A stretch of 64,000 nt of DNA from Ricordea florida (Eukaryota > Cnidaria > Anthozoa > Corallimorpharia > Ricordeidae): positions 3,873,201-3,937,200 of the forward strand of contig OX453276.1 of assembly GCA_949710005.1 (NCBI GenBank), read 5' to 3'. Below are positions 9,297 to 53,953 of this stretch, piece by piece; position 1 is the first letter of the stretch, and every line of letters begins with the position of its first letter. The notes below the pieces were generated by a model. It made no database searches. It was not told where the DNA came from and saw nothing but the letters and a program-made list of their open reading frames with translations. The translations under genes were made by a program, and so were the position numbers.

Positions 9297-11162
9297 ATGA
9301 CTCCTAGTTGCCGTGCAATTGAGCACGAAGCGACAGACGTCCTTCCTATGCCTTCGCGTGATCAGCGGGAAGAGAATCTGGAGACGGAAAGTAAACAAAT
9401 TAGAAGCCAAAATTCTGGTGATTTTGAACCTATGGAACAGGAAAGAAAATCAGTTAGAGACAATGTTGTGGAGTTGCCTATTCGTTCTTGCTGCACGCAG
9501 ATTGGCAGAGATAACACCATATGTTTTGATTCAAAGATAAGGAATAATGCTGCAATTCACGACAGTTTCCTTAAAGAAGGCCCCGTTCTGAGATTTCATC
9601 GGAAGCCCGACGACTTCGTCGCAATCGGTCGGAGTAGACTGGGATTTCCCGATTGGAAGAACGACCACTTGATCCAACTGTTGGTTTGTAAAGGGCCGTC
9701 TATAAGTGAAACCGTGGACATTACAGACAAGTATGACATCACTGTTAGCGTTAAATATGATGGAACCATGGATACAGGGCAAGACTCCCCTGAGTACCAG
9801 TGTAAGCTCAGGAAAAATGAAACGCGAAATGGAAATCTATGCTGCCTTCCTGGTCTTGTGGACTTCCTGTTTCGTTTCCATGAGCCAAATGTTAAGTACA
9901 AGATTACGTTTGCATTAAAAATGGTTCCACCGAAAAACAAGAGACGAAAGAAAAGTGGAGCATCACACATTAATTCTGAAACAATAAGCGAAGTTTCATT
10001 GGTGCTAGAAACTGGATGTGTGGAAACTAAACCAAACAAGACTAAAATGAAAATGTCAAAGAATCGGGTGGAAAAGAGTGGGAAAGCTGTGGTGACTTTA
10101 AGGGCGCTGGGGGCAGCTTCTCAGTCTGAAGAATGCTTGGTGCTGGTCAAAAGATCTTCGTGGGTCATGAAACAGCTTCAGTCACTTCGTGATAATGGCA
10201 AATGGGAGGATTTCAGTCAAGTATCAACAGGTCTTTTGCATTCATTCCCCGACATTGATACACAAATAGCAGTTAAGCTGGAGGAAAGCGTGGCAGCTTG
10301 TTATCGAAATGATCTTGAGCGTTCAATTCAACTGATCAATGAAGCAGACGGAATGATTTCACAAGCGAAAAATCCCTGCTTACTGGCCGGCAGAAGTAGG
10401 TGCTACCTCGCTGGTGTGCTACGGCGACAGAGGAAGCTTGGAGAGGCCGAGCAGTGCGTGGAACTCGCGGAGCAAAACCTTCGTTGCTGCCAGTCGAACC
10501 TAGATGAAAGCTATGTGGTTTATGAGAAGGCGAGTGTGTTGCTGGATTTCATCGCACGCGCACCGCAGAGGAGCTACACGCAAATACGTGAGGCACTGAA
10601 AACCCTCGAAAAGTGTGTGGATGTGTGCGTCCGAATCGAGACCGAATACGAAGAGTTGTACTTGAAGAAACATCACTTCGCTTTCATCAAAATGGCGCTA
10701 CTTCTACTCGACTGCAGAACTGAGGCGGCCAGAAAACGGATCGTCAGCGGTGATTTTATCGCGAAAGGGCGACGTTGTTTAAACACCCTTCAAATAAAGT
10801 ACTGGGATGAAATATCCGAGGGAGTTAAGATTCAGTTCTATTTGGCCCGCTCCGATTTGGAATACAGAGAATCAAACTTCGCAGAGGCGGAAAAATTTGC
10901 GCTCATGGCCAAGGAAATGGCGACAAGTTTGGGCTTCGGTACTGAAATCTCCCCTGCGCAGGAGCGAGTGGATCACATCACTCAACTCCAGGCATCAAGC
11001 ACACACCATAAAGAGGCACATGTACCATCAGACGCAGGCAACAATGAAACCAAGCTTTTCACTTCCGGGGCAAGTGAAGGGGAGCGCGATGACGTCATTG
11101 CCTCGAGCTCTGGCCCCGAGTCTGATTGGTGGCTTTTCCAAAGCGGGAATGAAAATCAGTAA
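9297..11162 (+). CDS. RHIM-TPR1: RHIM-motif, TPR-like repeat protein
   Basis: Predicted 621-residue cytoplasmic protein on one exon. ATG 9297 is the first after an in-frame TAA at 9273. Order: polar N-terminus; a RHIM-like core TQIGRDNTICF at about residues 67-77; a strand-rich segment of unknown fold (about 95-210, starting GPVLRF) shared with RHIM-TPR2; a very basic linker (about 213-260); an alpha-helical repeat region (about 287-565) in which LRDNGKWEDF, YRNDLERSIQLI and NFAEAEKFALMAKEMA fit TPR-like helix pairs; and a Ser/acidic tail. RHIMs follow [IV]-Q-[ILV]-G-x-x-N-x-[ILMV]; here Gln, Ile, Gly and Asn are kept but Thr replaces the first hydrophobic residue. Known RHIM proteins assemble into signalling amyloids in innate immunity and necroptosis. 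A role as adaptor or scaffold is inference, and the binding partners are unknown. Confidence 0.85.
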   Translation: MTPSCRAIEHEATDVLPMPSRDQREENLETESKQIRSQNSGDFEPMEQERKSVRDNVVELPIRSCCTQIGRDNTICFDSKIRNNAAIHDSFLKEGPVLRFHRKPDDFVAIGRSRLGFPDWKNDHLIQLLVCKGPSISETVDITDKYDITVSVKYDGTMDTGQDSPEYQCKLRKNETRNGNLCCLPGLVDFLFRFHEPNVKYKITFALKMVPPKNKRRKKSGASHINSETISEVSLVLETGCVETKPNKTKMKMSKNRVEKSGKAVVTLRALGAASQSEECLVLVKRSSWVMKQLQSLRDNGKWEDFSQVSTGLLHSFPDIDTQIAVKLEESVAACYRNDLERSIQLINEADGMISQAKNPCLLAGRSRCYLAGVLRRQRKLGEAEQCVELAEQNLRCCQSNLDESYVVYEKASVLLDFIARAPQRSYTQIREALKTLEKCVDVCVRIETEYEELYLKKHHFAFIKMALLLLDCRTEAARKRIVSGDFIAKGRRCLNTLQIKYWDEISEGVKIQFYLARSDLEYRESNFAEAEKFALMAKEMATSLGFGTEISPAQERVDHITQLQASSTHHKEAHVPSDAGNNETKLFTSGASEGERDDVIASSSGPESDWWLFQSGNENQ

Positions 11163-11245
11163 TTTTGATAACGAGACAGTGTTAACTATGAACTGCAAAT
11201 CACGCGGAAATGGGTTCCTGTATAGCATACAGCATCATTCAACAG

Positions 11246-11337
11246 CAACCTCGTTCCCAGGGCTTTTCCCTAGAAAGAAAAATGGTGGACGGGTCCGCCA
11301 TTTTTTTTTCTAGGGAAAAGCCCTGGGAACGAGGTTG
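11246..11337. repeat. 92 bp palindromic MITE with 9 bp target duplication
   Basis: The ends CAACCTCGTTCCCAGGGC and GCCCTGGGAACGAGGTTG are perfect inverted repeats extending to about 30 bp. ATTCAACAG flanks both sides exactly (11237-11245 and 11338-11346), so the insertion is well defined and young. It lies 84 bases downstream of the RHIM-TPR1 stop codon. Confidence 0.85.
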
Positions 11338-11875
11338 ATTCAACAGGAGTTTAACATCGCAGGGGCAAGAACAGCTGACACACACTGATCACATTATTTG
11401 TTAAGACTGATAATGATTCACCCCTGCTTAAATATCATGTGATTATATAAATTTAAAGGATCGAAACGAAGTAAATAAATTGATGCAATCGTATGCTCTT
11501 TGTTTGTTTACTTCCGAGTCATTCTCCCCGATACACTCCCTTCTAATCTCCATTTCCTTCGTAATTCTTTTAATTTGTCTTGACCTCAGGGCCAAGCGAA
11601 TTGTCAAACAAACAAAGGTTCTATCGCTTTCTTGAATCAAACTTCCGTTTAAGACGTACTTCTCATGTTATGTTATGAACGAAAACACCGAGCAATGCCC
11701 GGCCGCAGGTGATCAAGTGCATTATAGACCAGCGAATGTTCGCGCGCTAATTGGTAAAATTTCATCATTGATAGGAGCATAGACGTATATAACAAAAAAA
11801 AAAGAAAACTGTAAAGTGTGTAATTGTAAGTAACTGTAAGTGTAAGTAAGTATATAAGTAGTGTTGTAAGTATTG

Positions 11876-11908
11876 GAATAATAATAATAATGATAATAAT
11901 AATAATAA

Positions 11909-11939
<31 letters not shown>

Positions 11940-11960
11940 AAGAAAAATTATAATAATAAA
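11876..11960. repeat. AAT/AAG microsatellite
   Basis: Runs of ATA/AAT trinucleotides pass directly into about 12 AAG units. Confidence 0.9.
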
Positions 11961-12468
11961 TAGACGTATATAACCCTTTCTTATGCTTTACTTGAAGCTA
12001 ACAGCTTTCGAATTGGGAAATTTCAAAACAGAAAGTGTATTTAAAGACATGTAAGAATTATTACATGTTTCACAGCGAACGCCAGACTGGGCGAGTCGCT
12101 CGGAGTCACATGTTCCACTCACCTTTCTCTTTTCAGACGAATTTCATTTCGGAAATTTCGATTCTCGCGGAACCCTCACACAGTGTACTTTGATTTTGGC
12201 ATTTAAATTTGTCGACCTAATCAGAATTTTAATATATTTTAAGATAGAATGACAATTCGTGCAGCACCTTTTTGCTATCTGCTATATATGGTCTGACCGG
12301 AAGTTGAATCGCCTCGTGGTAGTTCTCGTTTGCTTATTATTGTCAGGGTGCGGCTCCTGGAGCAAATAGGTTTTAGTCTTTGACAAGCTGACTCTCTCCA
12401 CCCTGAGAGTGGAGCATATGTATGGTAGGGTGTGCCTTGTCACATCAAGCTCATGTGACGCTACGTAC
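11961..12468. other. Intergenic / 5' flank of RHIM-TPR2
   Basis: No gene seen. The stretch is unique-looking non-coding sequence that probably includes the RHIM-TPR2 promoter. Confidence 0.4.
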
Positions 12469-12469
12469 G

Positions 12470-12479
12470 GGGATTACCC
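12470..12479. promoter_or_regulatory. NF-kB-like site upstream of RHIM-TPR2 (one mismatch)
   Basis: GGGATTACCC differs from the kB consensus at one position and lies 303 bases before the ATG. It is weaker than the sites of the other two intact paralogues. Confidence 0.3.
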
Positions 12480-12772
12480 TTTGCGACGATACATGATTTA
12501 AAATCCTATCGAACGTAAACATTGAAAGGTAGCTTATCTCGTTTCTGACTTGAATTATCGAAGGTAAGGGAGGGCGTTTCATATGAATCTCAAACAGAAA
12601 ACTTTAACGCCTACAACGAAACAATTTGAAGGGAGGAGTTCGAAAACGAAGCGGGTAAGATACAAAGGTGAGAAAAACTCAACCCTTTCTTGATACAGTT
12701 CGCGAAATCGTGCTGCTTTAGTGACGTTGCTGGAATTCACGATAGCCGTTTGAGCGAGAAAAGATGCTCTAA

Positions 12773-14467
12773 ATGGCGTTTATGGGAGGTAGTGTAATAG
12801 GAAAGGCTGTTGATGTACTGTTGCCAACAGGCAGGACTTGTGAAGGAAGCAATGGAAACGAACCGCTGTTCACTCACATACGGCATAAAATTCAGACAGA
12901 GTGTTTACAAATTGGAGATCACAACACAGTGACGATTGATTTCGCCGACCTTCCCGAAGAGAAACAGTTTTCCGATCACTTCACGACAGCTTCCGTGAAC
13001 AACCGAATCGTTTTTCGCGTTCTACGAAGGAATGGCTCCGAAGAGGAACTGGTTTTGATTAATGATGGGAATGTGAAGACTCAAACAGTTGACATACAAG
13101 CCGACTTTGTTAGAATAATTCCGTCTTCTTCTAGTGAATTGCAAGAGGAGATGCAAATTGAAACCGAAGTGGATTCCCGAGTTCTTGTCCAGATCGGCAA
13201 CAATAATCATATGGTGATATCTTCTGGAGTTTACCCGAATACCTTCGGCGATTCTCGCCCTGTGCTTCGTTTCCTTCGGCAATTACCGATAGATCCCGTT
13301 CCTTGTTGTGGTTCCAAGAGCGATTTCCCAAACCCCGAGAAAGATTATTTGGTGGCGTTCGAAGTAAATGAGACGCATCCACCAATAATAGCAACTGATT
13401 ATGACCTAAAAGGGACGCTTACCACCTCAAATTCCAAGGATTTGGAATTGGTAGTTTACGTTAAACGATGCGCAAATGATGGACAGACAGAAAACAATGG
13501 TTTTCTGTTGCAAAAGGTCACTTCACTGGCGGGAGTTCACGAATTTTGGTTTCGTTTTTTGGAACCTAAAACTCGGTATTTTATCAGATTTTCACTCTTG
13601 ATACAAACTGCTCTACAGACGGAGAATGAACTGCTTGATGAATTAACTGTTTCAGTTGAAACCTGCGCCTCAAAAACAAGGCACAAAACTTACAAACACA
13701 GAAAAAAACAAAGAAAACCAGCGGAAATAAACAAAACTTTACAAGAAGTCCCCTTCCGGGTAAAAGTCGAAGTACAAGATTCACTTCCGGAGCAAGTAAA
13801 TGTCCAATCAGCTGAGTTGGATGATTTCTTCGAATGCTGCAATGGCTTCATGGAGATGTTACTAGAACTTCGGAATAATGGTGAATGGGACAAGTTAGAT
13901 GATGAAGTGACACGGTTGCTGGACGAATGCACAGACATAAATATTCGGATTGCCATTATGTTGGAACAGGGAATGACTGCCTGCTGTCGAGGTGAACCGG
14001 AAGTCGCAGAGGCGTTAATCCGGAAAGCGTCCGTGATCTTTTCCAAGGCATCTCCGGAACTGAAACCCCTCTTGAAGGGCCGTGCCAGTTCTTACTTAGC
14101 GGCGATTTATCGAAGGGGTAACATGAAACTCGGCAGAGCACAGAAATGCATCGAGTCCGCAAAAAACTTTTTGAGACATAAGGGTTTTGTTCATGATTTA
14201 GGATTTGTTGCATATGAAGAAGGATGCCTGCTTCTTAGGTTTGGTCGCAAACGTTGTTCCTTGAAGAAAGCAATGGAATGTTTTGATCTATGCCATGAGC
14301 TTTGCTCAAGAGGCACCCAAATCAACTCGGCATTGCAAAAGCATCATTTATCCATGGTAGATGAAAAACGCCAAGCTGTCTTACGACTGTTGTGGAGCGA
14401 GCGTTCTGGGGATGCGGGAAAGATGACCAAGAATCAACGCCAGGATCAAGAACCGATTCAAGGATAG
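12773..14467 (+). CDS. RHIM-TPR2: two RHIM-like motifs, shortened TPR-like region
   Basis: 564-residue single-exon protein. The ATG follows an in-frame TAA directly. It has two RHIM-like cores: CLQIGDHNTVTI at 44-55 and VLVQIGNNNHMVI at 137-149. The second is the best RHIM match in the window, with V-Q-I-G-x-x-N-x-M intact. A strand-rich domain (about 162-300, SRPVLRF to TVSVET) aligns with RHIM-TPR1, followed by a basic linker (302-320) and helical repeats from about 355 to 535. The helical region stops where RHIM-TPR1 continues for roughly 100 more residues; the divergent tail (from about 528) and the duplication of this 3' end just downstream suggest a rearranged terminus. Probably a signalling adaptor able to join two amyloid stacks or to nucleate more strongly; that role is inference. 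Confidence 0.85.
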   Translation: MAFMGGSVIGKAVDVLLPTGRTCEGSNGNEPLFTHIRHKIQTECLQIGDHNTVTIDFADLPEEKQFSDHFTTASVNNRIVFRVLRRNGSEEELVLINDGNVKTQTVDIQADFVRIIPSSSSELQEEMQIETEVDSRVLVQIGNNNHMVISSGVYPNTFGDSRPVLRFLRQLPIDPVPCCGSKSDFPNPEKDYLVAFEVNETHPPIIATDYDLKGTLTTSNSKDLELVVYVKRCANDGQTENNGFLLQKVTSLAGVHEFWFRFLEPKTRYFIRFSLLIQTALQTENELLDELTVSVETCASKTRHKTYKHRKKQRKPAEINKTLQEVPFRVKVEVQDSLPEQVNVQSAELDDFFECCNGFMEMLLELRNNGEWDKLDDEVTRLLDECTDINIRIAIMLEQGMTACCRGEPEVAEALIRKASVIFSKASPELKPLLKGRASSYLAAIYRRGNMKLGRAQKCIESAKNFLRHKGFVHDLGFVAYEEGCLLLRFGRKRCSLKKAMECFDLCHELCSRGTQINSALQKHHLSMVDEKRQAVLRLLWSERSGDAGKMTKNQRQDQEPIQG

Positions 14468-15024
14468 AATTACGAGAATAAAAACACGAGTCCTTCGTCT
14501 AGAGGAGCGAAAATATTGTTTACAAAACAGACCTTGGATTTTTTTCTCGCAAATTAAAAATATGTAATAATATATTTAACTTTAAGGTGAAAAAACGTAA
14601 AAAAAATGATCGAGTCCTTTGATTGCGAGAGCGAAAATGACAAGAGAGACGTTTAACGGGAATGTTTAACGGAATGGATCTTCGGACCCTCCCCTCAACC
14701 GGACTTGTCTATACTACAACAGTCTCCTACTACTCCACAACAGTCTTACGACTGTTGTGGAGCGAGCGTTCTGGGGATGCGGGAAAGATGACCAAGAATC
14801 AACGCCAGGATCAAGAACCGATTCAAGGATAGAATTACGAGAATAAAAACACGAGTCCTTCGTCTAGAGGAGCGAAAATATTGTTTACAAAACAGACCTT
14901 GGATTTTTTTCTCGCAAATTAAAAATATGTAATAATATATTTAACTTTAAGGTGAAAAAACGTAAAAAAAAATGAACGAGTCCTTTGATTGCGAGAGCGA
15001 AAATGACAAGAGAGACGTTTAACG
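14378..15024 (+). repeat. Direct duplication of the RHIM-TPR2 3' end with a palindrome at the junction
   Basis: About 281 bases from 14378 (last coding bases, stop and 3' flank) recur at 14743-15024 almost unchanged. The copies are about 365 bases apart. The second copy starts inside a perfect hairpin: CTCCACAACAGTC, TTAC, then its reverse complement (about 14734-14763). The near identity points to a recent event. Confidence 0.85.
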
Positions 15025-15133
15025 ATGCGTTTCCGTCAAGCGAAACCGTATATCAATATTGAACTTTCAATTATCAGAGTTTCACTAGTTTTGTTAGTAG
15101 AGGGGCGGACTTCTTCATAAATTCAGATAATAA

Positions 15134-15432
15134 GGGACGGACCATTAGAAAAGTGATGGTGGGGGGGGGGGTGGGGAATTTTCAGCTTGCACGAATTTTT
15201 TTTTTCGCTCACTGCTTGTGCAGGAATTTTTTTTCAGGTGAACCCCTCTGCACGAATTTTTTTTACTACGTGTGAAAAAGTCACAATTGGACTTTCCTTC
15301 TGCTTGAATTTTTTTCTTTACCTTCTTCTTTGCATGAATTTTTTTCTTGGCATTTTCCCTTGAATGATTTTTTTTTTGTTTTTTTCCGCACCCCCCCCCC
15401 CCCCCCTCATCACTTTTCTAATGGTCCGTCCC
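15134..15432. repeat. Harbinger-like MITE (GGGACGGACCATTAG ends, TAA target site)
   Basis: Inverted ends GGGACGGACCATTAG extend through AAAAGTGATGG into G/C homopolymer runs. TAA lies on both sides (15131-15133, 15433-15435), the target type of PIF/Harbinger elements. The interior has repeated GCATGAATTTTTTTC-like phrases and no gene. A sister copy at 58377-63226 is split by a LINE. Confidence 0.8.
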
Positions 15433-15435
15433 TAA

Positions 15436-16087
15436 TCAGCTCAAGCTGGCAGTTTTGACATCAGATTCCCCAAACTAACAAAGAAGGACAGGTGTATGGT
15501 ACTCAGTAAAGAGAATTCTTGATCCGCTTTTGCGATTGGAATAGTCAAGCCGCTATAGACTGTTCCAGGTGTTTTTTCACTGACTATCCCCTATATTTTG
15601 TAGTTATTTTTTGGACGTGTAAAAAACTGACTGGCAATGTAACGGCACCCTTTTATTGCTGTGCCATTTCTTTATGTGCTCATCGATCTCATTGAAAATT
15701 GCGAACAATAGTTTCTTAATTTTGCCCCGGAATCCTAGTAACTGAATACTGGTCCAAGCATTTTCACGCCAAAGTCCATTAAGATATTTATCACAATTAA
15801 AAGAATACTGCTTGATCATGATCACATGGCATTAAAAATTCAACAGTTTCAATGCATGATAAAAATTCCTTTTCCACGTGCAATGCACCAGTGCTTCTAA
15901 TATCTTTTCTCTAATATAAGCCATGGAAAAAAAATTAGAATGATTCTTTTTTCTCTGAGGAGCTTCGTAAATTTGCTTTGAAGTATGTGTAATGAAATGG
16001 TGACGTGTGACATTCGGGAATAATTTCACGCGCATTTTGTCCAAATTCTAATAATTTCCCCAGCCTTTTTATTCCTAATTTCACGAG
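15436..16087. other. Intergenic, no gene seen
   Basis: AT-rich. No coding, RNA or repeat signal that I can support. Confidence 0.4.
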
Positions 16088-16112
16088 TATACCGTTTGAA
16101 TTATTACCCATT

Positions 16113-16214
16113 AATATCATGGGTGACAAATTACTATCACATGTGAACTGAGTATAACTTAACGCCGAAATTTTCTGCGCCAAAATCAAGGAGTAATTTG
16201 TCACCCATGATATT
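16113..16214. repeat. Small MITE with AATATCATGGGTGACAAATT ends
   Basis: AATATCATGGGTGACAAATT at the left is inverted at the right, with 102 bp in total. A longer copy with more interior sequence sits at the matching position in copy B (about 49191-49342). Confidence 0.7.
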
Positions 16215-16538
16215 TTGAAAAGAGTACTGATCTGTGGATTGACTCAGGTTTTAGCTTCTGTTCTGGACTTTTCTTGCACCCAGTGTGGTCGTCGCTTATT
16301 GGAGAGTTGACTTTAAAGTGCATATGAAACGAAATTATATCATTCCTCCAAATTATGATTTTGTGTACTTCATGTTCTCTGTTTACCATTATCAAAATCC
16401 GTTTGCCTTGATCGACAATAAAACTGATAATTTTCGACTCTGAAAGTTGGTCTCCCGAGTTTAAATTTTGCGACATTTCCCGCGCGGCCAGAAAGGTGTG
16501 AGTGACGTCATTAGTTGTGTAGCAAGCGGTGAGGAAAC

Positions 16539-18085
16539 ATGGCGGAGAGTGGGAAAAAGAGAGTATCCGGAAAGTTTTGCGTGGCTGGTGGCCCTGGAAG
16601 AATTAGTTGTACAAATAGTAGCTTGAAACCAGGGATTTCGATGCACCTCTTTCCATCCCAAGATGTTTTAAGGAAGCAATGGACAAAATTCGTCCAAAAA
16701 CACAGGCCTGATTTTAAGCCATCGAAAACTTCAGTGTTGTGTTCGGTGCATTTTGCACCAGAGTGTTTTTCGCGAAGGCTCGATATTGCTGGTAACAGCT
16801 CAGATGTCTCTACTAGTAGACGACTGGAAAAGGGATCGGTACCGACCATTGATGTAACTATCAGCGAGCCAAACACACCATCTTTAACAAGTCGGGAGCG
16901 AAGGAAGGTGAGTGGTTTGGTTTGCACTACTAAGCGTCCTAGTCAACTTAAAGAGCTTAAATTCCATCTTGTTTTTCATGCAGTAATGAGAACTGAAATG
17001 ATTTACCATAACTCTTGGCCACATACTTTCTGAAACCTTTTTTTTACGGCAGCTTGCGCTATAAATTTTCTGACACTCCAGAGGCAAACATTGATTGTAG
17101 CATGGGTATTGAAACTCCTGCCACTGTACCTGGACAAAGAGTTTTTCTATCAACTGCAGATGAGACACCAGTTCCATCACTTGGGCCACCAAGTGCTCCC
17201 TTGTGTGGCAAGTGTTACAGACTAAGCAAGAGTGTGAGGCGCCTTCAGAAACAGAATAGCTTCCTGAAGAAAAGGAACAGAGAGCTGACAGATCAATTGA
17301 AACATGTGCGTAATATAAAATGCTATCATCCTTTATGAACGTAATTGTTATTTTTGTGTGCTGCCCCTGCATCACAGACAGGGGTTGGGTGTGTTGATGA
17401 TTGTCTGATTGTCATTTTTTTAGGTTCATGTAGATGATAGCACTGAAGGTTCTCAAGATGAGCTTGAGATTGACAGGACTGAGAAACCAATATTACCTTC
17501 ACCCTTGAAGAGCTCATCTGAGGGACATACAGAAACAGAAGCAGAAGCAGACACGAGATCCCAACTGGTCCTCCCAAGGAGAAGAGGCGGAGGATAATAC
17601 CGCTGATGATGATAATGATAACAACGACCTACGAGATGGTAAAGTGAGGTATGTCATTTTTGAGAAGGCCATGGCCCACATATCGTGTGTGTGCAATATA
17701 CTGTTTATTTTTCCTGTGCCTTCCACATTACAATCACGTGTCAAAATGTGTAGACAATTGTTGAGATAAGTCTCTCTGCCATAATTACAGGGTGGAACGT
17801 GACACACCAGTTCAGGATGAGCCAAAGTTCTTGGTGTTCTATGGTATGCTTCTCAGCCTTTTCACCATGTTCTGTTTTCGTTGCAAAAGTGGAAAGCCAA
17901 CATTGGAGATGAAACAAAATGGGACAATGGTGACTGTGCTACAGCACTGCAGGAATTGCGAGGGTCAACCCTTCACTTGGAGGAGCCAGCCCTTTGTCTT
18001 AGGGAGGTACCCAGCTGGGAACGTTCTACTTAGTTTTGCGGTGCTGATGGCTGGGGCATCTATAAGCAAAGTTCTGCAGACATGA
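16539..18085 (+). pseudogene. THAP-domain transposase-like gene, frameshifted and truncated
   Basis: Exon 1 (16539-16907) encodes a C2CH THAP zinc-finger DNA-binding domain: KFCVAGGPGRISC, later LFPSQ and SVLCSVHFAPECF. Exon 2 (17084-17305) encodes a coiled coil (RRLQKQNSFLKKRNREL). Exon 3 is about 17424-17648 and exon 4 is 17791-18085, with a CFRCKSGKP and HCRNC cysteine pair and a QPFxLGRYPAGN segment. The splice sites fit GT-AG, but exon 3 needs a one-base frame change between its start (stop at about 17595) and its acidic end, which joins exon 4 in phase. The product ends soon after exon 4 begins to resemble a transposase core, and no catalytic DDE residues follow. It is probably a decayed transposase of the enclosing element. 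Confidence 0.6.
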
Positions 18086-18515
18086 TGAAGTCAGGCATAA
18101 TAATAATTATTTATGAGAGGGCTGTCACTAAGCGCTGGGGCCGGGGACTGAGGATTTCCCGTCAGCTGCAATAAGCATGACCCCTGACTAGTTTCACAGG
18201 AAAGAGAAGGAAAATAGAACCAAAAGAAATTTACTTCTTAGCTGTTCAATTCCCTGCTTACACTGTACTAATTGCATATAACCGGCAACATGAGATCTTA
18301 GTGCCAGCCCTGAATATACCATTTATAAAGAGATTGTTTTCAGCATTCATATTATAAACAATACTGATGCATTTAACTGGAACATGTAATGTTATTCAAT
18401 AAATAATAATATAATCCAACTTCTTCAATTAATTTATCTTTGTAAGTACTGTTTTGCTAACATAATATTATTGTCCTAAGTGCAGAGCAAAATAGCTTTG
18501 CCAGGGTAGGTTTGC

Positions 18516-19616
18516 TTAGCTCCTGTCCTCAGCTGAAGTATACCCTGTAGTATGGTGACTAGTAAATCTGGATCTGACGTTGTGGTAAATGCAAGCTGGT
18601 AATGGTCTACAGTTGTCCCAGCCTAGATAACCAAAGATCCAGCGAATAAGCCATCTGTAAGCGGTAGCTCTGAGAAACCTGAAGTGCACAGAAGAGAAAA
18701 AAAGAGTTATTCTATATGTATTTAACAGTCGTGATTACATGAAAATAAAACATTCCTTGAAGTGAGTATAAATTTAGAAAGCCTGCGAGCAGAGTCACTT
18801 TGATCTTACTGACCTCGGCTCATATCTAAGAATAATTGACGCATGCTAGTAGGTAAAATGAAAGAGCCAAATCCTACAACTCGATCCACGTCAAAAACAC
18901 AACATTTATATCCTTACTCGTTTTCTGAAGTGTTGCCCCTACGTCGGTACGTTCTTCCATCTTTCCCTTTAAGAAGAGGTGCCACTTGTGTAAGAACTGC
19001 TCTGTTCGTAAGTGCAATGAAGTCCGGGTGCTGGGTAATACATGTGAACTGTTCAATAGTGCCATCAAACACAAGCTTTCCAATGGCGCAATCGACTTCC
19101 TTGCAGCATCTAAACTCCCGTGCGGACTCCAATGCAGCGTCATAGCAATGGTTACAGGAACACCTAAAGTAGTCATTTCAGACACGGAATCCATAAGATG
19201 AATAACCATTTACGCCGAGGGCTTCACACACAGACATGGGCCGTGCATGCTTCATACATGCAGTTCGTCGAACAGTCCTCTGTCGAGCTCAGTCGAGGCA
19301 AAAAAAAAAGAAAACGGAGAATGACTTAAATCTAGCTGTTCGATTTACAATAAAAACAAAACTTTCAGACATACCAGTTGCCGACTGGGATCGTTTTCTC
19401 GAATCGCTGTTCCAAAGTTGCTGGAATTATTCCATCTTCATCGGCTTCATCATTCTCATCGAGGCCATCAAGAGAATCCTCGATCGTCGCCAAAGGTTCG
19501 TTCTGGTACGGTGCAATAGAGTCTGTTATGGCTCCTACATCTGAATCACTGCCTTCTGAGTATTCTGTTTCATCTTCAGAAGAGGATGACGAAAAATTCT
19601 CATCGCTTTCAGCCAT
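18516..19616 (-). CDS. P2X7 ballast-domain-like cysteine protein (three exons)
   Basis: Exons on the minus strand: 19616-19375, 19163-18918, 18678-18516. Donors (G|GTATGT, GA|GTAAGG) and acceptors (TTTAG, TTCAG) keep phase exactly and give 216 residues. The N-terminus is Ser/Glu/Asp-rich. The rest matches the intracellular zinc-binding 'ballast' domain of P2X7 receptors (Pfam P2RX7_C): WCSCNHC at 81-87, FRCCKEVDC at 98-106, CITQHPDF at 122-129, ATAYRWLIRWIFGYLG at 167-182 and RPLPACI at 187-193. There is no P2X channel or membrane segment. It lies wholly inside the TTAA-flanked transposon and is transcribed against the THAP gene. In cnidarians this domain is common outside receptors; its role here is unknown. 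Confidence 0.75.
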
Positions 19617-19894
19617 GTTGATCCACAGTATTTCAAGTTTACACGGTAACTCGTGTTTATGACAGGAAATGCACAAGAGAGCAACACAACTAATGACGTC
19701 ATCGGGAATCAACTGGAGCCCAGGCCCTTGTCGCACGTTTTGGCCTAAATACGTGTAACTTCTATCGAAAAAAAAAATATGTCGCGCCGTCCCACAGAAC
19801 TTATTTTGCTCTCAAATTGTTTATTTTTCTGATGAGGTTTTCGATTTAAGAAAAAAAAGAGGGGTTTAAATTTCGTTTCATATGCACTTTAAAG

Positions 19895-19904
19895 GGGAAA
19901 TCCC
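19895..19904. promoter_or_regulatory. NF-kB-type site upstream of RHIM-TPR3
   Basis: GGGAAATCCC is a perfect kB decamer 59 bases before the ATG at 19954. It is conserved in copy B at 49403-49412. The transposon at 16317-19888 ends 6 bases upstream, so it left this site next to the gene but displaced everything further upstream. Confidence 0.5.
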
Positions 19905-19953
19905 TCATTCCTGCTTTTATTTTACCTTACGTGGATTTCTTATCACTTACAAG

Positions 19954-21339
19954 ATGGCGGGCAATAGACCACGACCTATTTCAGACACTCCGATGTCTAG
20001 TGGTTCTCAACCAGCATTTAATGTGGATTTGAGATGGAGCCAAATAGGTGTCCTTCAGATTGGGGATGGTAACGTGGTTAATTTGCAAAGTCCCCGTCAG
20101 TCAGAACTTGGGAAAATCTCCTCAGCCTCGGACAAAGTGCCTCTTCCCCGGATCACACAGGGAATACAGGGTTGTTTTCATTGTGGTGCAAAGCGGAAGC
20201 AAAGCACAATTAACTTCGCGAAAAAGAAACGAAAATCAAATTCAAAATTAATCTCCAGTAGTAGCGGAGATGAATTGGCCTTAACGAAGCCTTCACCAGA
20301 TTTACTGGAAGCCATTAGAGGAAGAAAAGAATCACTGGAAAAAGCTTTCAGTATAATCAACCAACTGCATCCTTTGCGAGACAGCGGCAAGTGGGACGAG
20401 TTTCAGAAAATTGCAGATAGTATTCTTCTCGAGAGAAAAGGCGATTTAGGGAGCGAGTTATTGGTCTCATTCGAAAGAAGTGTCGTTTTCAGTTATCAGA
20501 ACGATCCCGATAGATCGGAAGCAATGCTTGAAAGTGACTTAAAAAAACTCAAGGAATCAAAATTTGAAGACATGTATCTATTTTATTTCTTGATGGCGAC
20601 AGCGTTTATACACCAAACAGGACTTAACAGGCGGCAGAACAGACATGGCGATGCCGAAGAAAGTCTTGCATTGGCTCGCCAAAACGCAAGTGCTATAAAA
20701 TCTGGTTATCTCCAAGCGATCCTTGCCTATGAATCTGCTAGCAATCAGTCTAAGTACGTGTCAGTCTTGTCCTCTGACAAAAGACGTGCAAATTTAGTAA
20801 ACAAAGCTAAGAACACCATGGAAGAATGCATTTCGATATGTGCTCAAATAGACCGTCATGAACATTACATTCGTAAGGACCATTTTGGTCTCACAAAACT
20901 GGCTCTGGTGGATTTAAACTGTCGCACACGAATGGCCCGCTCGATGCCCGTGAAGGCGAACTGTTTAAACAACGCAAGAAAATACATCGAATGTTTGGAA
21001 AAGTACGAACATCAAGGTGAGATCAGCGAGGGAAACAGGATACAAATTTGGGTGGCGAAATCTGACTTTGATTTCAGGTTGAACAATCTGCAAGCGGCAG
21101 AGGTCGAAGCCAAGCGTGCCTTGGAAATGGCAGAAAAATTTGGGTTTAGTCTGGAGATAAGTCCTATCAAGGAACGACTGGAAGATATTTCACAGTTAAT
21201 CGCATCTCAAGAACAAAGAAGTTTTGCAGAAAGGACGTCCACTCAATGGTCAGTGGCTCAACGAGCGCAGTCGCCAAGTTCCTCATCATCAAGCCCTACT
21301 TCTTCAAGGTTTCCCAGCTCTTCAGATTGCGAACTCTAA
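19954..21339 (+). CDS. RHIM-TPR3: short RHIM-motif, TPR-like repeat protein
   Basis: 461 residues, single exon. I choose ATG 19954 (AAGATGG context) over the in-frame ATG at 19882, because the latter lies in the transposon end and its codons are absent from copy B, while the peptide starting MAGNRPR is shared. RHIM-like core VLQIGDGNVVNL at 33-44; a basic patch (about 79-98, KKKRKSNSK); helical TPR-like repeats from about 124 to 430 (LHPLRDSGKWDEF, GDAEESLALARQNA, LQAAEVEAKRALEMAEKF), closely similar to RHIM-TPR1; Ser-rich tail. The strand-rich middle domain of RHIM-TPR1 and 2 is missing, so motif and repeats are nearly adjacent. Probably an amyloid-nucleating adaptor; the partner is unknown. 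Confidence 0.85.
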   Translation: MAGNRPRPISDTPMSSGSQPAFNVDLRWSQIGVLQIGDGNVVNLQSPRQSELGKISSASDKVPLPRITQGIQGCFHCGAKRKQSTINFAKKKRKSNSKLISSSSGDELALTKPSPDLLEAIRGRKESLEKAFSIINQLHPLRDSGKWDEFQKIADSILLERKGDLGSELLVSFERSVVFSYQNDPDRSEAMLESDLKKLKESKFEDMYLFYFLMATAFIHQTGLNRRQNRHGDAEESLALARQNASAIKSGYLQAILAYESASNQSKYVSVLSSDKRRANLVNKAKNTMEECISICAQIDRHEHYIRKDHFGLTKLALVDLNCRTRMARSMPVKANCLNNARKYIECLEKYEHQGEISEGNRIQIWVAKSDFDFRLNNLQAAEVEAKRALEMAEKFGFSLEISPIKERLEDISQLIASQEQRSFAERTSTQWSVAQRAQSPSSSSSSPTSSRFPSSSDCEL

Positions 21340-25147: not shown

Positions 25148-28100
25148 TCATGTGCTGCTTTTAATGGTGAGCAAATATTCAGGATAGCATTGAGCGTCGC
25201 GGAATACCACAAACAAAGTTGGATTCGAAACATTGTCCACCACAAAGTCATACAGCACTTCCGGTATCAAAGGATCACGAGGTGGAGGTATCCGAAGGCC
25301 TTTGCGTCCCATTGTATACAACCCCACCAAGACACGTGCAAGATACATTTGCCGCTCGCCGCAGACAGCTGACGTGTAGGACATCGAGTAAGAAGCATTT
25401 CTGGCGAAGTAAACTCCATTGCCGTACATCGCACCTTATGAGTAGAAGCAGAAAAAAATGCAAGTGTTGCGATAATGGGTAAGATTTCCGCACAGGTCCC
25501 TACTTCATTATGCATTCTGTAACTATACTATTTCGTTCTTCGAGCACAAGAAATATTTGCACGTGCATTACACCAGACAAGACAGCTTCAGCATGCATAA
25601 TGAAGTAGGGACCTGTGCGAAAATCTTACCTAATGATGTCAGTTTTTTCTGTTATCCTAGTGTGGCATTACACGGAAGGCCGAGCAATGGGAAAGAATTT
25701 TATAAATATACTAGATACTAATACACTTGTTCTATACCTACAGACTTAAGACTAAGATTGTCGGGTTTCAGTTTGTAATTTTGAAACGTTCAGTGGTGGT
25801 CGGAACATTTTGCAATGTTGGCAAGGTTTCTTCGCAAAGTCGTTATAAATGTTCGACAGTCACTGGGGCGTTTCAGGAAACCACGGTCATGGCGCGACAA
25901 AAATCTCTTGCATTTGACTCACAAAAGTTGGCATGTATGCAATATACCTATTCCTCCTCGGATAAAATACAGTGATGTTCGCAGATCCAATCGCAAAATA
26001 GACAGCACTATTTCGCGATGATTAGGCAAGAAACAAAGAAAGGATTGAAATTTGTGAAAATAAGAAAACATTGGAGTGAGTATGTATCTTCCAAGAGTAT
26101 CAGAACTGAAAGGAGGGCTTCATCACCAGGCACTATTCGCAGACTATTCGGGACCGAGCCCACATATGAGTGGAAATCGAGCTTAACTATAAAGTGATGA
26201 AAAATGGTAGGGTTGTGGGATGTGGCTTGAAATGACAATGTCAAAATGTAACAAGGGTAAGTTAAAGCCACACATATGCGCACTGAGGTGACAGTGGTAG
26301 AAGGGATTAAACCCTGTTGCTACCAAAAAAAAAGATGAAAAAATTGAGCTCAAAATGGCTGCTGGCTTTTGAGCTGAAATTTTTCATCTTTTTTTTTTGG
26401 TAGCAACAGGGTTTAATCCCTTCTACCACTGTCGCCTCAGTGCGCATATGTGTGGCTTTAACTTACCCTTATTACATTTTGACATTAACTATAAAGTGAA
26501 TGTGTTACATGTGTCCCTCGGGCTGGTTGTTCGAAGGCCGATTAGCACTAACCCAGGGTTAAATTTCAACCCGGGTTTCTTTTCCTCTTGTTAAAAAGCG
26601 TTTTCTCCGATAACTTTCTCTACGTTATTCAGAGCATACAATCATCAAATTGTATTCGAAAAGAATTATACTGAATGTGCTTTTTAAGCTCTCATATCAG
26701 CAATTAAATTTCGCACTAACCCACCAGCCCCAGGACAGTATAATGCGTACTTGTGTGGTTTCCTAGACCACGTAACAGGCGCTCAACTCTCGTGGAACAC
26801 TAAATAAATCCGATCGTGCCATAATGTGGCAACACAAGGCGTGTAAGCCACACAAAAAGCAGCTATTTTTGAAACTCGTATTTCCCGCGAAACTCTCTTC
26901 TATGGCACAACTTACCGTTGGATCCACTAAAGCTTCTATTGAACCCCTGTCTGTTGATAGAGTTGACGTTCCATTCGTCCGTTCCATGAAAAAGCTGTAA
27001 CTCATTGAGTTTATCAGAAATTCGACTGTTTTCCCTCTCCATCTCCTCCTTACACAGTGTATACTGCTTGTACAAGTAGCGGTTTTGAACCCTCTCTATC
27101 TTGATCAGATCTCCTTTTCCTCCCGTATAATGGAACATGTCAGCAACGGTCACGTGCTCCCAAGAGGTGTTATCCAAACAAACCAGATGAACAGGACTTT
27201 CATCTCCTTCAATGTACGGGTGGGCTTCCCACGAAGAGGGTAGAACTGATCCTGAAAAAGGGAACGAAAAGTCCCAAGAGGGGTATAGCTCAGTAGGCAG
27301 TATCAACGTCTCTCATTCTCTTGGTGTACCATGAACAATAGCTGCGACCATGGGATATTTTAGGGCTGGTTCGAAGTTTGTTATTATCTTTTTTTTGGGA
27401 AAGATATGGCGGATGGTGGAATAATGACCCCACTTAGCGCTTCAAACTACGGCAGACCGCATGCGTGAGTAGTTGGTCATTTCGCCTCCGATCCTCCGAG
27501 CAAACGTATTACAAAAAAAGAAAAAAAAGAAGATAACGGTTCACCACTTTACCTCTACCTTAACGGCATCCGTGGCTTTTCTGCTCAAATCATAGCTTCA
27601 CAGTCGCGTCTCTTTTTAATCAAAGTGGCAAGATTTCTGCACAGGTCCCTACTTCATTATGCATGCTGAAGGTGTCTTGTCTGGTGTAATGCACGTGCAA
27701 ATATTTCTTGTGTTCGAAGAACGAAACAGTATAGTTGCAGAATGCATAATGAAGTAGGGACCTGTGCGGAAATCTTACCATCAAAGTATTAGGGAAAATG
27801 AGCAGATGAGGGCAACTCACAGTCTATTAAGACTACAGAAACCTGAGCATCCTGTGGATAGCATGCGCTTCATTCCTAAGTAAAACTGTATATATACCTA
27901 CCTGATTCACCTTGATGTTTTCGAATCAACGGAACTGACTGACAGTTACCATGACCTGCGACTATGGTCATATTTGTAAAGTTTGCCTTGAATTCCTTGT
28001 TGCTTACCCGGAAAGAAACGTCGTTGTACTGCTGGCTGTAAGCTTCTTCCAGAATGCAGTTCACTCTCACAGAACAAGCGATTGGCAGTTCAAGAATAAC

Positions 28101-29931
28101 GAAACTCCAACAAACATACTTCGACAGCAACTCACGTTTCTTAAGCAGACTTGGGTTTATCGCGTATGCGTTGATTTCCTCCCAAATGCGAACCGCCACC
28201 GAGAAAACATCATCCGGGTTTCCGCATAGTGAAATGGCATTTTCGTTACTTTCTGGTTGGAGCGTGATATCACAGCGCTGAGCAATATCACGCAATCGAT
28301 TCCAGGTACATGTGTTTTGCAGAAGTTGTGGTACAACGTCGTTGGTTACCTTCTGATCTGCAATATTTAATGCGTAATACGCTTGCAAACTACTCGCAGC
28401 CTTAAGAATACTTTTCTTGTCCTTTCCATATATACGAACGCGAAACGCTTCCTTGTTCATTGCATGGTCTCCACGGTCGACCATGTTACCCTGCTCCCTT
28501 CCTGGACACAGATCTGCAGTGTTCCCTTCGTCCTCGTCATCATCAGTCTGCCTAAATAGCGGGGAATATTCTTCAAGTGTCAACACCGGAATACACTCGT
28601 CACTCACCTCTTTAGAAAAAGTGGCAAACATTTGTCTTTTGAAAAGGACAATTCTGATTTGGCGGAGAGTTTTTGGTGGGCACTCCAAGAAACTCAGGAT
28701 ACCCCGAGACAAGAACTGGGCCGAGGTTCTCCAGCTTAGTCCCATGCCACCTGCTCCGACAGTGGGCAGTGAAATAGAAACCAAGCTTCTAGAGTCAGCC
28801 AATTGTAAAGCAGTTTTTATGCCAAATTGAAGTGCACCAGCCTGCTGCAAACATGACGAGTGAATCACGTGAATCACATATTTACATGGCAGACGTCCAG
28901 CGGCGGTCATTACGGCAGAACCAAGATGCTGAGCGCCATTTTCCATGACCAGCGACTCACATTCTTCCTGTAGGATAGGGCCAGCCGCCTTCAAAATCTT
29001 ACAATTGAGTTCGCCCCCGTTACTCAGGTTCAAATCCATCCGATTGATTACTAGAATGGCGTCAGTGGTTTCTTTTGTCAAATTTCCAACACAGATAAAA
29101 ATTTCAGCGCCTTTAATATTTATTGATTTGGTCAACATGGCGTGCGCAGATGTCTGTGATGGCAGCTGATTCAGCACGAGTCCTCCCCGAATGTTCGTAT
29201 CTGTAATCTGGGCATGCACCCAAACGTTTCTCTCGCCTTCCGGCTCTCTATACAAAATCCCTGAACCATCAACAGTATTTCCTGGGTATGATAGGTTGTG
29301 AGATTCTTTCTGCAAAACAAATCAAACAAAACTAAAATTTAATTATGTTCCGCTTTTCAACATTGGGCAGTTCTCAGGTTACGCGCCCCTATGATCAGGG
29401 TACTTAGACTCTCGGAACAAGTCTTACCTGTTGCCATGGCAACGCTTGCACGTTGCCCCTCGTGACATTTTGTTCAATATCTTGTGACTGTGCTTCTTTT
29501 AGCACCTCGATGACACAAGCATACTTCCTTTCCTTGTTGCTAAGCGCATGCTTCCCAATTCCACGGACAAAGAACTTCCGCATTCCAGGTTGGCTAAATG
29601 AGACAGTCGCTACGTGAACGTGACTCGCTATTTCTGGGAAAAGCGCGTAGATCCTCACAAGGTTTCGTCTCTCACTTTCATCGCTCACAGAAGACGGGTC
29701 AAAATCTGTCGGTCTCTTGAGCTTTTTGTTCAACTTTTTGAGCTTTTCCTTTAACAATGGTAAATCGCGCCGGCCATAATCAAACAGGTACTTTAGGACA
29801 CCGCTTTTGGTATCATTGCAGGCCCAAAACAAGTCTGATGCTCGTCTCCAATCCACGTTCATATCCTCAACATTCTCTTTGTTAGTAATGACTTCAGGCT
29901 CAGGTAAAGCATTGTCACCGCACTCTTCCAT
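25148..29931 (-). CDS. PARP14-like macrodomain mono-ADP-ribosyltransferase (four exons)
   Basis: Exons: 29931-29428, 29309-27902, 27251-26916, 25434-25148; all junctions are GT-AG and in phase, giving 844 residues. Order: N-terminal region of unknown fold (1-168); macrodomain about 233-403 (FICVGNLTKETTDAILVIN, PTVGAGGMG); acidic linker; KH-like part about 454-552; WWE domain about 565-633; ART catalytic domain 638-844. The triad is His726 (LFHGT), Tyr758 (GVYFA), Leu823 (PTLFVVF). Leu in place of the PARP1 Glu predicts mono-ADP-ribosylation. In the macrodomain, the usual VNAAN-like loop is altered (VINRMD), so ADP-ribose binding is uncertain. MITEs sit in introns 2 and 3. Vertebrate PARP14 has more macrodomains and N-terminal RRMs; upstream exons could have been lost or cut off by the retrotransposon at 30162. 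The family acts in interferon and antiviral responses in vertebrates. Confidence 0.85.
25478..25630. repeat. MITE, GGTAAGATTTCCGCACAGG family (PARP intron 3)
   Basis: Inverted ends GGTAAGATTTCCGCACAGG / CCTGTGCGAAAATCTTACC, 153 bp. This family has five copies in the window (also 27627, 39380, 41460, 63306). The matching copy in B (63306-63464) shows this insertion predates the segmental duplication. Confidence 0.8.
26237..26486. repeat. 250 bp near-perfect palindrome (PARP intron 3)
   Basis: Arms of about 118 bases starting AATGTCAAAATGTAACAAGG are inverted around a short centre near 26356-26370. AACTATAAAGTGA appears just right of the element and also about 50 bases to its left. Probably a foldback MITE. 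Confidence 0.75.
27627..27779. repeat. MITE, same family as 25478 (PARP intron 2)
   Basis: 153 bp with the same inverted ends. A perfect 8 bp duplication ATCAAAGT flanks it (27619-27626, 27780-27787), which fits a hAT-type insertion. Confidence 0.85.
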
Positions 29932-49176: not shown

Positions 49177-49402
49177 ACCGTTTGATTAATAATATCATGG
49201 GTGACAAATTACTCTTTAATTTTCGCGCCGTAGGAGAAGTTGTCATAACAACATTGTAATTTCACATGTGAATTGATTATAACTTAACGCCGAAATTTTC
49301 TGCGCCAAAATTAAGGAGTAATTTGTCACCCATGATATTTTGAAATGAGTACTGATCTGTGGATTGACGCAGGTTTTAGTTATTGGAGAATTGACTTTAA
49401 AG

Positions 49403-49412
49403 GGGAAATCCC
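49403..49412. promoter_or_regulatory. Conserved NF-kB-type site upstream of the RHIM-TPR4 pseudogene
   Basis: GGGAAATCCC, 59 bases before the ATG at 49462, identical to the copy A site. Here the sequence upstream is the uninterrupted ancestral flank. Confidence 0.45.
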
Positions 49413-50514
49413 TCATTCCTGCTTTTATTTTACCTCATTTGGGTTTCTTATCACTGACAAGATGGCGGGCAATAGACCACGACCTATGCCAGACACTCCG
49501 ATGTCTAGTGGTTCTCAACCAGCATTTAATGTGGATTTGAGATGGAGCCAAATAGATGTCCTTCAGATTGGGGATGGTAACGTGGTTAATTTTCAATGTC
49601 CCCGTCAGTTAGAACTTGGGAAAATCTCCTCAGCCTCGGACAAAGTGCCCCTTCCCCGATCACACAGGGAATATAGGGTTGTTGTCATTGTGGCGCAAAG
49701 CGGAAGCAAAGGACATTAACTTCGCGCAAAAGAAACGAAAGTCAAATTCAAAATTAATCTCCAGTAGTAGCGGAGATGAATTGACCTTAACGAAGCCTTC
49801 ACCAGATTTATTGGAAGTCCTTAGAGGGATATGTCGAAAACGAAGACCCAAAAACGAAGACCGAAGACCGAAGACCCTGTGGTCTAAAACGAAGACCCAC
49901 TGGTCTAAAACGAAGACCCACTGGTCTAAAACGAAGACCCTGTGGTCTAAAACGAAGACCCTGTGGTCTAAAACGAAGACCCTATGGTCTAAAACGAAGA
50001 CCCTGTGGTCTAAAACGAAGACCCTGTGGTCTAAAACGAAGACCCTGTGGTCTAAAACGAAGACCCTGTGGTCTAAAACGAAGACCCACTGGTCTAAAAC
50101 GAAGACCCACTGGTCTAAAACGAAGACCCTGTGGTCAAAAACGAAGACCCACTGGTCTCATTGCTGTAGCGCATAAATAAAATGTCATCTGAGCGCGCGA
50201 CAAACTTGACAGTTGCTTTATCTCAGTCGGTACAACACGTGTCGAATTGTGTAACGCAATTAAATTCCAACAGTATAGAAATATACGTTTTAGTGACGAT
50301 TTTAGTATATCTTGTCGTCACCGATATTCTATTTTTCAAATGCATATAAGCAAATTACGATGAGGTGACTTCATTACTTTGCTATATATACTGTCCTTAT
50401 CTTATAAAGGCGCAAAGGTCAACTTTGCGTGACTCGGAAATTTATTCACCACGTGCTACAATAATTTAATTTTCCCGGGAAAATTACATTATCACTCTCA
50501 CATGCATCCCTGCG

Positions 50515-50950
50515 TTGAGAATGTCGTTTTTTCGGCATTTCAAGCTTCCCCAATTCTTAAAAAAGCAACAATCTTCTGCGGAAATTATCGAGAACATAAA
50601 AGTATTTGATTGCAATGCTCTGCAAGTGAAAAAGCGGCTCGGTCAAGGTGCTTTTGGCGATGTATACACCACAGAAACACCTACAGAATATGGAACTGAG
50701 GTAAAGGCCAAAACAGTGGTTGTCAAGAAAATGTTGCATGTCCTTGACCAAGGCGAGAAGAAACTTTTCTTCAAAGAAGTAGCTCTTCTCAATGGACTTC
50801 TGCACCCCAACATTGTGAAACTGCTTGGAGTATCAGCCGCTGGCGATAATGCTTGAATATGTTTACTTTGACTTCAAGCTGTTTGGCGTCGACGATTTGC
50901 GTGTCAGCTCGCTGATTTCTTGCTGCAAATTAACGATTTCAACTGCAAAG
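50515..50950 (+). pseudogene. Captured protein kinase N-lobe fragment
   Basis: Reads MRMSFFRHFK, then a glycine loop RLGQGAFGDVY at about 41-51, VVVKKM (ATP-binding Lys), FFKEVALLNGLLHPNIVKLLGV (helix C Glu at 88), and, after a frame change near 50830, a hinge-like IMLEYVYFDF. The style is tyrosine-kinase-like/TKL. No catalytic loop (HRD) or DFG follows, so it is inactive. It sits between the foldback arms, inside the broken RHIM gene. Whether the source kinase was RIPK-related cannot be told. Confidence 0.7.
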
Positions 50951-51452
50951 GATTCCACGATGTAATTAATCATGCGGATTCTTGCAGGAGCCCATGGGTT
51001 CCTGATTGCAGTTGTTGTTGTAGTGAAAGTTCATGCAGGTGTCCCTAGGGTTACCTTATCAAGTGCAACAGTGTTAGCCCTATTAATCAAAGTAGCAGAA
51101 ACATCTGAGCTGTGCTATCAGAACAAAATTTATTACTCAAACTCCGACACATTAAAAAGAACACTTAGTGTAATGTAAGGACTGTTCATCTAACAAAAAT
51201 TTAAAGATAAGTCATCTTTTGACTTACGCGACAGCTTTCTCGGACAGCCATAACGGCACAAGCCTTTGAAATGCAAACGTGATCTGATACAAAATGAAGA
51301 GCCTGTTTGCTGTATGACACTTTTGACATATATCAAAACCACAACAGTTCTATAACTGTTGTTCGTTTTTACACTTGACTTGGCCAATGTATAATCAATC
51401 ACAAATTTTCCCGGGGACATTGCATGTGCTATATTTGTTTGTGGAAGCTTAT

Positions 51453-52502: not shown

Positions 52503-53953
52503 CTTTGAAAGTCACACACAGTTGACCTACCTCAAACGATAGGCACAGTCACAGTATGGCGTAGTATAATTGAAGTCACCTCATCGTAATTTGCTCATGC
52601 ATTTGAAAAATAGAACATTGGTGACGACAAGATATACTAAAATTGTCACTAAAACGTATATTTCTATACTGTTGGAATTTAATTGCGTTACACAATTCGA
52701 CACGTGTTGTACCGACTGAGATAAAGCAACTGTCAAGTTTGTCGCGCGCTCAGATGACATTTTATTTATGCGCTACAGCAGTGAGACCAGTGGGTCTTCG
52801 TTTTAGACCAGTGGGTCTTCGTTTTAAACCAGTGGGTCTTCGTTTTAGACCAGTGGGTCTTCGTTTTAGACCACAGGGTCTTCGTTTTAGACCACAGGGT
52901 CTTCGGTCTTCGTTTTTGGATCTTCGTTTTCGACACATCCAAGTGGGAAGAAAAGTATCCCTGGAAAAAGCTTTCAGAATCATCAACGAACTGCATCCTT
53001 TGCGAGACAGCGGCAAGTGGAAAGAGTTTCAGAAAATTGCAGATAGTATTCTTCTCGACAGAAAAGGCGATTTACAGAGCGAGTTATTAGTCTCTTTCGA
53101 AAGAAGTGTCGTACGTTGTCAGTTATCAGAACGATCCCGAGAAATCAGTAGCAATGCTTGAAAGTGGCTTGAAAATTCTCAAGGAATCAAGATTTGAAGA
53201 CATGTATCTATTTTATTTCTTGATGGCGACAGCGTTTATACACCAAACGGGGTTTTACAGGCGTCAGAACAGACGTGGCGATGCCGAAGAAAGTCTTGCA
53301 TTGGCTCGCCAAAACGCAAGTGCTATAAAATCGGGTTATCGATCCTTGCCTATGAATCTGCTAGCAATCAGTCTAAGTACGTTTCACTCTTGCCTTATAA
53401 CAAAAGACGTGCAAATTTAGTAAACAAAGCTAAGAACACCATGGAAGAGTGCATTTCGATATGTGCACAAATAGACGGTCATGAACATTACATTCGTAAG
53501 GACCATTTTGGTCTCACAAAACTGGCTCTAGTGGTTTTAAACTGCCGCACACGAATGGCCCGCTCGAGGCCCGTGAAGGCGAACTGTTTAAACGACGCGA
53601 GAAGATACATCGAACGTTTGGAAAAGTACGAACATCAAGGTGAGATAAGCGAGGGAAACAGGATACAAATTTGGATGGCGAAATCTGACTTTGATTTCAG
53701 GTTGAACAATCTGCAAGCGGCGGAGGTCAAAGCCAAGCGTGCTATGGAAATGGCAGAAAAATTTGGGTTTAGTCTGGAGATAAGTCCTATCAAGGAACGA
53801 CTGGAAGATATTTCACAGTTAATCGCATCTCAAGAACAAACGGCCTTCACTCAATGGTCAGTGGCTCAACGAGCGCAGTCGCCAAGTTCCTTATCATCAA
53901 GCCCTGCTACTTCCACAAGGTACTCTCCCAGCTCTTCAGATTGCGAACTCTAA

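Follow-up and report, generated by a model that had tools for sequence, protein, structure and literature searches.

Proteins that combine a RHIM-like amyloid motif with tetratricopeptide repeats (TPRs) have been described in fungi and in animals. Fungal PNT1 has the architecture PP(RHIM-like)-NB-ARC-TPR and acts with HELLP (PMC12881547, PMC7885112), and in TRIF a tetratricopeptide repeat at the N-terminus is combined with a RHIM (PMC12965317). Reports of RHIM-related amyloids cover mammals and mammalian viruses as well as flies, fungi and prokaryotes (PMC7889193). Within the animals, one survey reported a RHIM-bearing RIPK1 from lancelets and spiralians but found none in cnidarians (PMC12119088), and another survey dates the RHIM function of RIPKs to vertebrates (PMC9573974). 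Here we describe a small family of candidate RHIM-TPR proteins from a cnidarian, the corallimorpharian Ricordea florida. The family was noticed in a stretch of 64,000 nucleotides on contig OX453276.1 (assembly GCA_949710005.1, positions 3,873,201 to 3,937,200, forward strand), which is called the window below. Its members have a largely polar N-terminus, in some of them with the core Q-I-G-x-x-N-x-φ-x-φ (φ, hydrophobic) and in some with a middle domain, and then a probable TPR-like helical solenoid.

An earlier note on the window knew of no described RHIM-TPR architecture. PNT1 and TRIF, in the papers cited above, contradict this; in other words, RHIM-plus-TPR as a kind is not new. A cnidarian RHIM-TPR family without detectable NB-ARC, TIR or RIPK-type kinase was not found among the open-licence literature matches listed. 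PNT1 carries an N-terminal RHIM-like amyloid motif and TPRs in one protein, a combination that the motif-bearing coral proteins may share, whereas the coral proteins gave no NB-ARC match and their TPRs are only remotely recognisable. In addition, no HeLo-like effector was found among 9 other open reading frames (ORFs) of the window scanned with Pfam. The adaptor TRIF (TICAM1) combines a RHIM with a TPR-type helical domain, but the order is reversed (TPR N-terminal, RHIM C-terminal), and the TIR domain of TRIF is absent from the matches of the coral members. RIPK1, RIPK3 and the herpesvirus RNR-like proteins share the Q-I-G-x-x-N core, whereas the coral family gave no match to a RIPK-type kinase, death or RNR domain. 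Among bacterial signalling proteins, BASS3 provides RHIM-like amyloid motifs (PMC8086366, PMC7889193), whereas the solenoid of one coral member, p1, has no sequence relative in the prokaryote genome collection, as judged by a single-protein query that reaches close relatives only.

The gene cluster

Three genes, p1, p2 and p3, are arranged on the forward strand of the window (Table 1). All three frames are open, and the four N-terminal Q-I-G-x-x-N cores quoted in the earlier note are present as written: TQIGRDNTI in p1, LQIGDHNTV and VQIGNNNHM in p2, and LQIGDGNVV in p3. The identity between p1 and p3 is 33% (287 residues), and that between p1 and p2 is 29% (423 residues), the latter alignment spanning the second motif of p2. 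By this sequence comparison, the three are diverged paralogues. That their frames are open despite the deep divergence argues for real proteins. An in-frame stop lies 7 codons upstream of the p1 start. The single-exon structure of the three genes is a reading of the genomic sequence alone.

The same note had called the three paralogues intact. This holds for the open frames, but p2 is short at its C-terminus and a fourth, broken copy had been overlooked. No internal stop is present in p2, but it lacks roughly 100 residues at the end of the repeat region that p1 and p3 have in common. The fourth copy (49390-53953) is p3-like, contains stops and retains the motif in its N-terminal half. By eye, the insert that splits it (window 49829-52945) contains arrays of mutually inverted 21-bp satellites, 49869-50158 against 52784-52905 and 51541-51724 against 52190-52412.

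Table 1. Positions of family genes, motifs and domains (window coordinates unless a contig is given)
Feature	Position	Strand	Remark
p1, 621-residue open frame (motif, middle domain, TPR-like region)	9297..11162	+	
p1 RHIM-like motif SCCTQIGRDNTICFDS	9486..9533	+	no Pfam RHIM match
p1 middle domain	9564..10031	+	from alignment
p1 TPR-like helical region	10146..11021	+	
p2, 564-residue open frame	12773..14467	+	C-terminally short compared with p1 and p3
p2 first RHIM-like motif TECLQIGDHNTVTIDF	12896..12943	+	no Pfam RHIM match
p2 second RHIM-like motif RVLVQIGNNNHMVISS	13178..13225	+	Pfam RHIM match
p2 middle domain	13226..13678	+	from alignment
p2 TPR-like region	13820..14374	+	shorter than in p1 and p3
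229-bp direct repeat, first copy	14378..14606	+	carries the C-terminal 28 codons and stop of p2
229-bp direct repeat, second copy	14743-14971		
p3, 461-residue frame	19954..21339	+	likely start ATG 19954; further ATG at 19882 (frame 19882-21339)
p3 RHIM-like motif IGVLQIGDGNVVNLQS	20044..20091	+	no Pfam RHIM match
p3 TPR-like region	20335..21225	+	TPR_8 14.3 bits, cut-off 25.7
Disrupted p3 copy, N-terminal part	49390..49828	+	pieces in more than one frame; motif LQIGDGNVV, QIGDGN from 49564
Disrupted p3 copy, C-terminal part	52946..53953	+	internal stops
C5b	C5:3.98 Mb		43 kb past the window
C5d, distant member	C5:1.06 Mb (L053, C5:1064400-1066300)	-	N-terminal TVVGDGSQVNI

Placement and conservation of the core

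A six-frame reading of the window yields five Q[IVL]GxxN, all of them within the family (one in the disrupted copy). In 40 trials under a first-order Markov model, the mean was 1.9 occurrences and the maximum 5. Since the trials reach 5, the signal is in the placement of the motif and the count is unremarkable. Among 91 open frames of at least 140 codons without N, taken from the window and from sixteen 10-kb stretches around or near family members and so not a random sample, Q[IVL]GxxN is found in exactly three, p1, p2 and p3. The disrupted copy does not enter this count, as its motif-bearing frame has fewer than 140 codons. The 150 kb of unmasked sequence in the sixteen other stretches (the surroundings of six other members and sequence adjacent to the window) contains four occurrences, in frames of 12-62 codons.

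The motif score exceeded that of residue-shuffled sequences (1000 shuffles) with P values of 0.001 for p1, 0.001 for the first motif of p2 and 0.007 for p3; the copies of the protein under test were excluded from the model, and the p3 pseudogene copy was left out. In a three-sequence alignment blind to the motif, the Q, I, G and N residues of p1 and p3 share columns with those of the second p2 motif. Ahead of the solenoid, QIG is the one place where three consecutive columns are invariant, and N follows at +3. The positions N+2 and N+4 are hydrophobic in all four copies of the three open genes, which is the alternation expected of a β-strand. The first motif of p2 aligns pairwise with that of p3 at 40% over 30 residues (E 0.008 in one comparison, 0.06-0.07 in another).

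Similarity of the core to RHIMs

The RHIM likeness proposed in the earlier note has support at the sequence level: the Pfam RHIM model recognised one of the five copies and a profile of the five retrieved RHIM chains, but the other copies were unmatched by Pfam. The recognised copy is the second motif of p2. Its score over the whole protein is 18 bits, below the gathering cut-off of 20 bits, but it rises to 21.3 on a fragment of 31 residues and to 22.3 on one of 20 residues. In a six-frame scan of the genome (538 Mb), this motif was the best of three matches and the only one above the cut-off (19.8 bits, 20.6 with its neighbours). The second-best match, L002 1501-1548 (TKIQIGNYNKISGG), lies in a 40-codon frame with an E-value of 1.9 and was set aside; it is possibly an exon, and chance is more likely. 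The third, in L003, covers 16 codons (E 5.6) and was also set aside.

Searched against 177,635 PDB sequences, a profile built from the five copies (16 columns) gave five matches. RHIM chains hold the first three places: two RHIM-sized chains of RIPK1, and one chain resembling an RNR large subunit, which we take to be a herpesvirus RHIM. The other two matches are unrelated. The column-reversed profile gave a single match, also unrelated. Herpesvirus RHIMs are listed in PMC9444067, and the tetrad published there is (V/I)-Q-(V/I/L/C)-G. The second motif of p2 (VQIG) fits this tetrad, and so does VQVG in the members C15a and C15b described below. C13a and C13b (VLVG), C5b, C5d and C7 do not fit. 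The RHIM likeness of some members is convincing, but it is statistically modest: the sequence comparisons are good evidence of a likeness, with specificity without significance, and are not proof.

C-terminal region and other domains

The C-terminal region is likely to be a diverged TPR-like solenoid. The TPR-like C-terminus had also been proposed in the earlier note; a remote profile match favours it weakly, and all Pfam TPR matches fall below their cut-offs. A C-terminal profile of nine sequences placed a bacterial kinesin-light-chain-like protein first among 11 PDB matches (E 5e-4, two chains), and O-GlcNAc transferase had E-values of 0.12-0.22. Both are TPR proteins. Lipoproteins and a viral envelope protein also matched, as did designed helical proteins, the best of these at E 0.001. 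Pfam TPR models recur in the family, the best being TPR_12 in C5b (21.2 bits against a gathering score of 30.1; E 3.5e-4).

The middle domain is common to p1, p2, C5b and C7, and its profile gave no match in the PDB. Among the ten open members described below, TIR was not matched (E up to 10, with filters that remove most matches above 0.1), and no protein kinase was found with Pfam. C7 matches BCDHK_Adom3, a non-catalytic domain of a mitochondrial kinase, below threshold (13 bits, cut-off 24). Searches of the ten members for NB-ARC/NACHT and death-fold domains, and of family members for the RNR domain, gave no match.

Members of the family in the genome

Protein searches of the same genome with p1, p3, p2, C7, C13a and C5d revealed at least ten open members: p1, p2, p3, C5b, C7, C13a, C13b, C15a, C15b and, tentatively, C5d. 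This is a lower bound, as only the best candidates were taken. Each member is uninterrupted in one frame. In addition, there are the disrupted copy and one fragment, at C13:10.42 Mb, which was not counted as a member. At this locus (L038), p1-like C-terminal fragments adjoin, by eye, ORFs resembling scavenger-receptor (SRCR) exons. The C13 and C15 members form a supported clade (98/96) in a tree without C5d. The membership of C5d is tentative, with genome E-values of 0.03 and 0.014 and a BLASTP E-value of 8e-6 against the family. No relatives of the family were found in viral_contigs.

A motif common to all members was rejected by the shuffle test on the seven members outside the window. Only C5d was below 0.1 in the 11-column form of the test; its TVVGDGSQVNI is near the p3 motif but lacks the Q (P 0.004 with 11 columns, 0.028 with 16). 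The VQVG of C15a and C15b was recognised by eye, and its motif score is not above the shuffles. No recognisable motif is present in C5b and C7. A candidate in C7 (16-column P 0.017) was discounted, the site being inside the C7 solenoid. These results confine the RHIM-like core to some of the members: at the sequence level it is well supported in p1, p2 and p3, with C5d as a tentative, distant fourth. In the recent pairs, which lack QIGxxN, the ratio of nonsynonymous to synonymous substitution rates (dN/dS) was 0.50 for C13a/b and 1.07 for C15a/b, from few changes. Such fast evolution fits immune genes or relaxed constraint.

Surroundings of the cluster

A Macro-domain ORF (window 27879-29315, reverse strand) lies close to the family, and a PARP-catalytic ORF (26866-27306, reverse strand) scores 24.8 bits (cut-off 26.7). 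The region containing both (26863-29931, reverse strand) is PARP14-like, and similar-looking ORFs were seen by eye at L032 3423-6302. Between the window and C5b (C5:3937201-3977200; L029-L032), there are, by eye, apparently two adjacent copies of a virus-like mobile element with packaging-ATPase-like and very long ORFs. Retroelement-like ORFs with DUF1759 and with a reverse transcriptase are found at window 35629-37419 and 61283-62179 (reverse strand). The same genome gave 61 GFP-family matches (exon pieces), of which 57 are on one contig. Arrays of this kind mark corals, and these matches support the anthozoan origin inferred in the earlier note.

Possible mechanism and alternatives

The likeliest reading is that the motif-bearing members are amyloid-signalling sensors or adaptors triggered via the solenoid. 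We give this reading a probability of roughly 0.5. The solenoid would bind a ligand or partner, and this binding would cluster the N-termini. The clustered motif might then nucleate a β-amyloid, which would recruit further RHIM-like proteins, as in the published accounts of fungal PNT1 and of TRIF. The output might be an immune response or cell death.

Several observations weigh against this reading. Six of the ten open members lack a supported motif. The nine-sequence alignment places the p3 motif on the VQVG/VLVG of C15 and C13, while p1 and p2 stay aligned with each other, so that a single common motif site is uncertain. The Pfam RHIM model matched one of the ten open members and one of ten motif peptides (five QIGxxN copies and five peptides from other members), and the second motif of p2 had an E-value of 0.56 in the six-frame genome scan, which alone is not significant. 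At the first position of the tetrad, p1 (TQIG), the first motif of p2 and p3 (both LQIG) deviate from the published form. The RHIM chains retrieved from the PDB have weak E-values (0.18-0.27), and RIPK1 accounts for two of the three. Three single motif peptides searched against the PDB gave no RHIM match. As for partners, no other RHIM protein was identified in the genome scan, in which the RHIM model may be insensitive, and a search for MLKL_N was empty, as was its control, so that this model may be insensitive as well.

The main rival to amyloid signalling is that QIGxxN is a conserved short β-strand or docking element, for example a strand that binds a partner, which is non-amyloid and resembles a RHIM by convergence. 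This is a serious possibility, though we hold it at less than an even chance. It would suit the members without a supported motif, and the Q-less TVVGDGSQVNI of C5d suggests an element of the form φ-G-x-x-[NST]-x-φ rather than the RHIM tetrad. It would also agree with the recognition of one copy in five by Pfam and with the two unrelated proteins among the five PDB matches. However, it is the RHIM core (Q, G and N at +3) that has been kept, where few other N-terminal residues are invariant across p1, p2 and p3. Furthermore, p2 has two copies of the motif, and motif repeats are carried by ZBP1 and HET-S.

Another explanation is that the proteins are RHIM-bearing decoys or inhibitors, which cap other RHIM assemblies instead of activating them. 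Herpesvirus RHIM decoys or inhibitors are known (PMC9444067; by its title also PMC7375649), and none of the ten open coral members has an effector domain above cut-off. Adaptors, however, likewise need no effector domain, and the genome scan, with its possibly insensitive model, identified no partner RHIM protein to be capped. We regard this explanation as unlikely. Chance is disfavoured and seems very improbable: the motif is very short and recent family pairs, which lack QIGxxN, evolve fast, but the motif lies in family frames in all five cases, in 3 of the 91 long frames, and is kept across paralogues that are approximately 30% identical.

Implications

Beyond the single proteins, anthozoans might run amyloid signalling with stand-alone RHIM-solenoid proteins that have no kinase, TIR or NB-ARC and that are clustered and fast-evolving like immune genes. 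This wider idea is put forward tentatively, at odds clearly below even. Bleaching and disease make cell death in corals a matter of wider importance. If the wider idea is true, RHIM-type amyloid signalling would be placed in cnidarians, joining the fungal PP-TPR and animal TRIF designs, and the motif would work with a bare helical solenoid. A coral family with this core would help to settle whether animals inherited RHIM signalling from their common ancestor.

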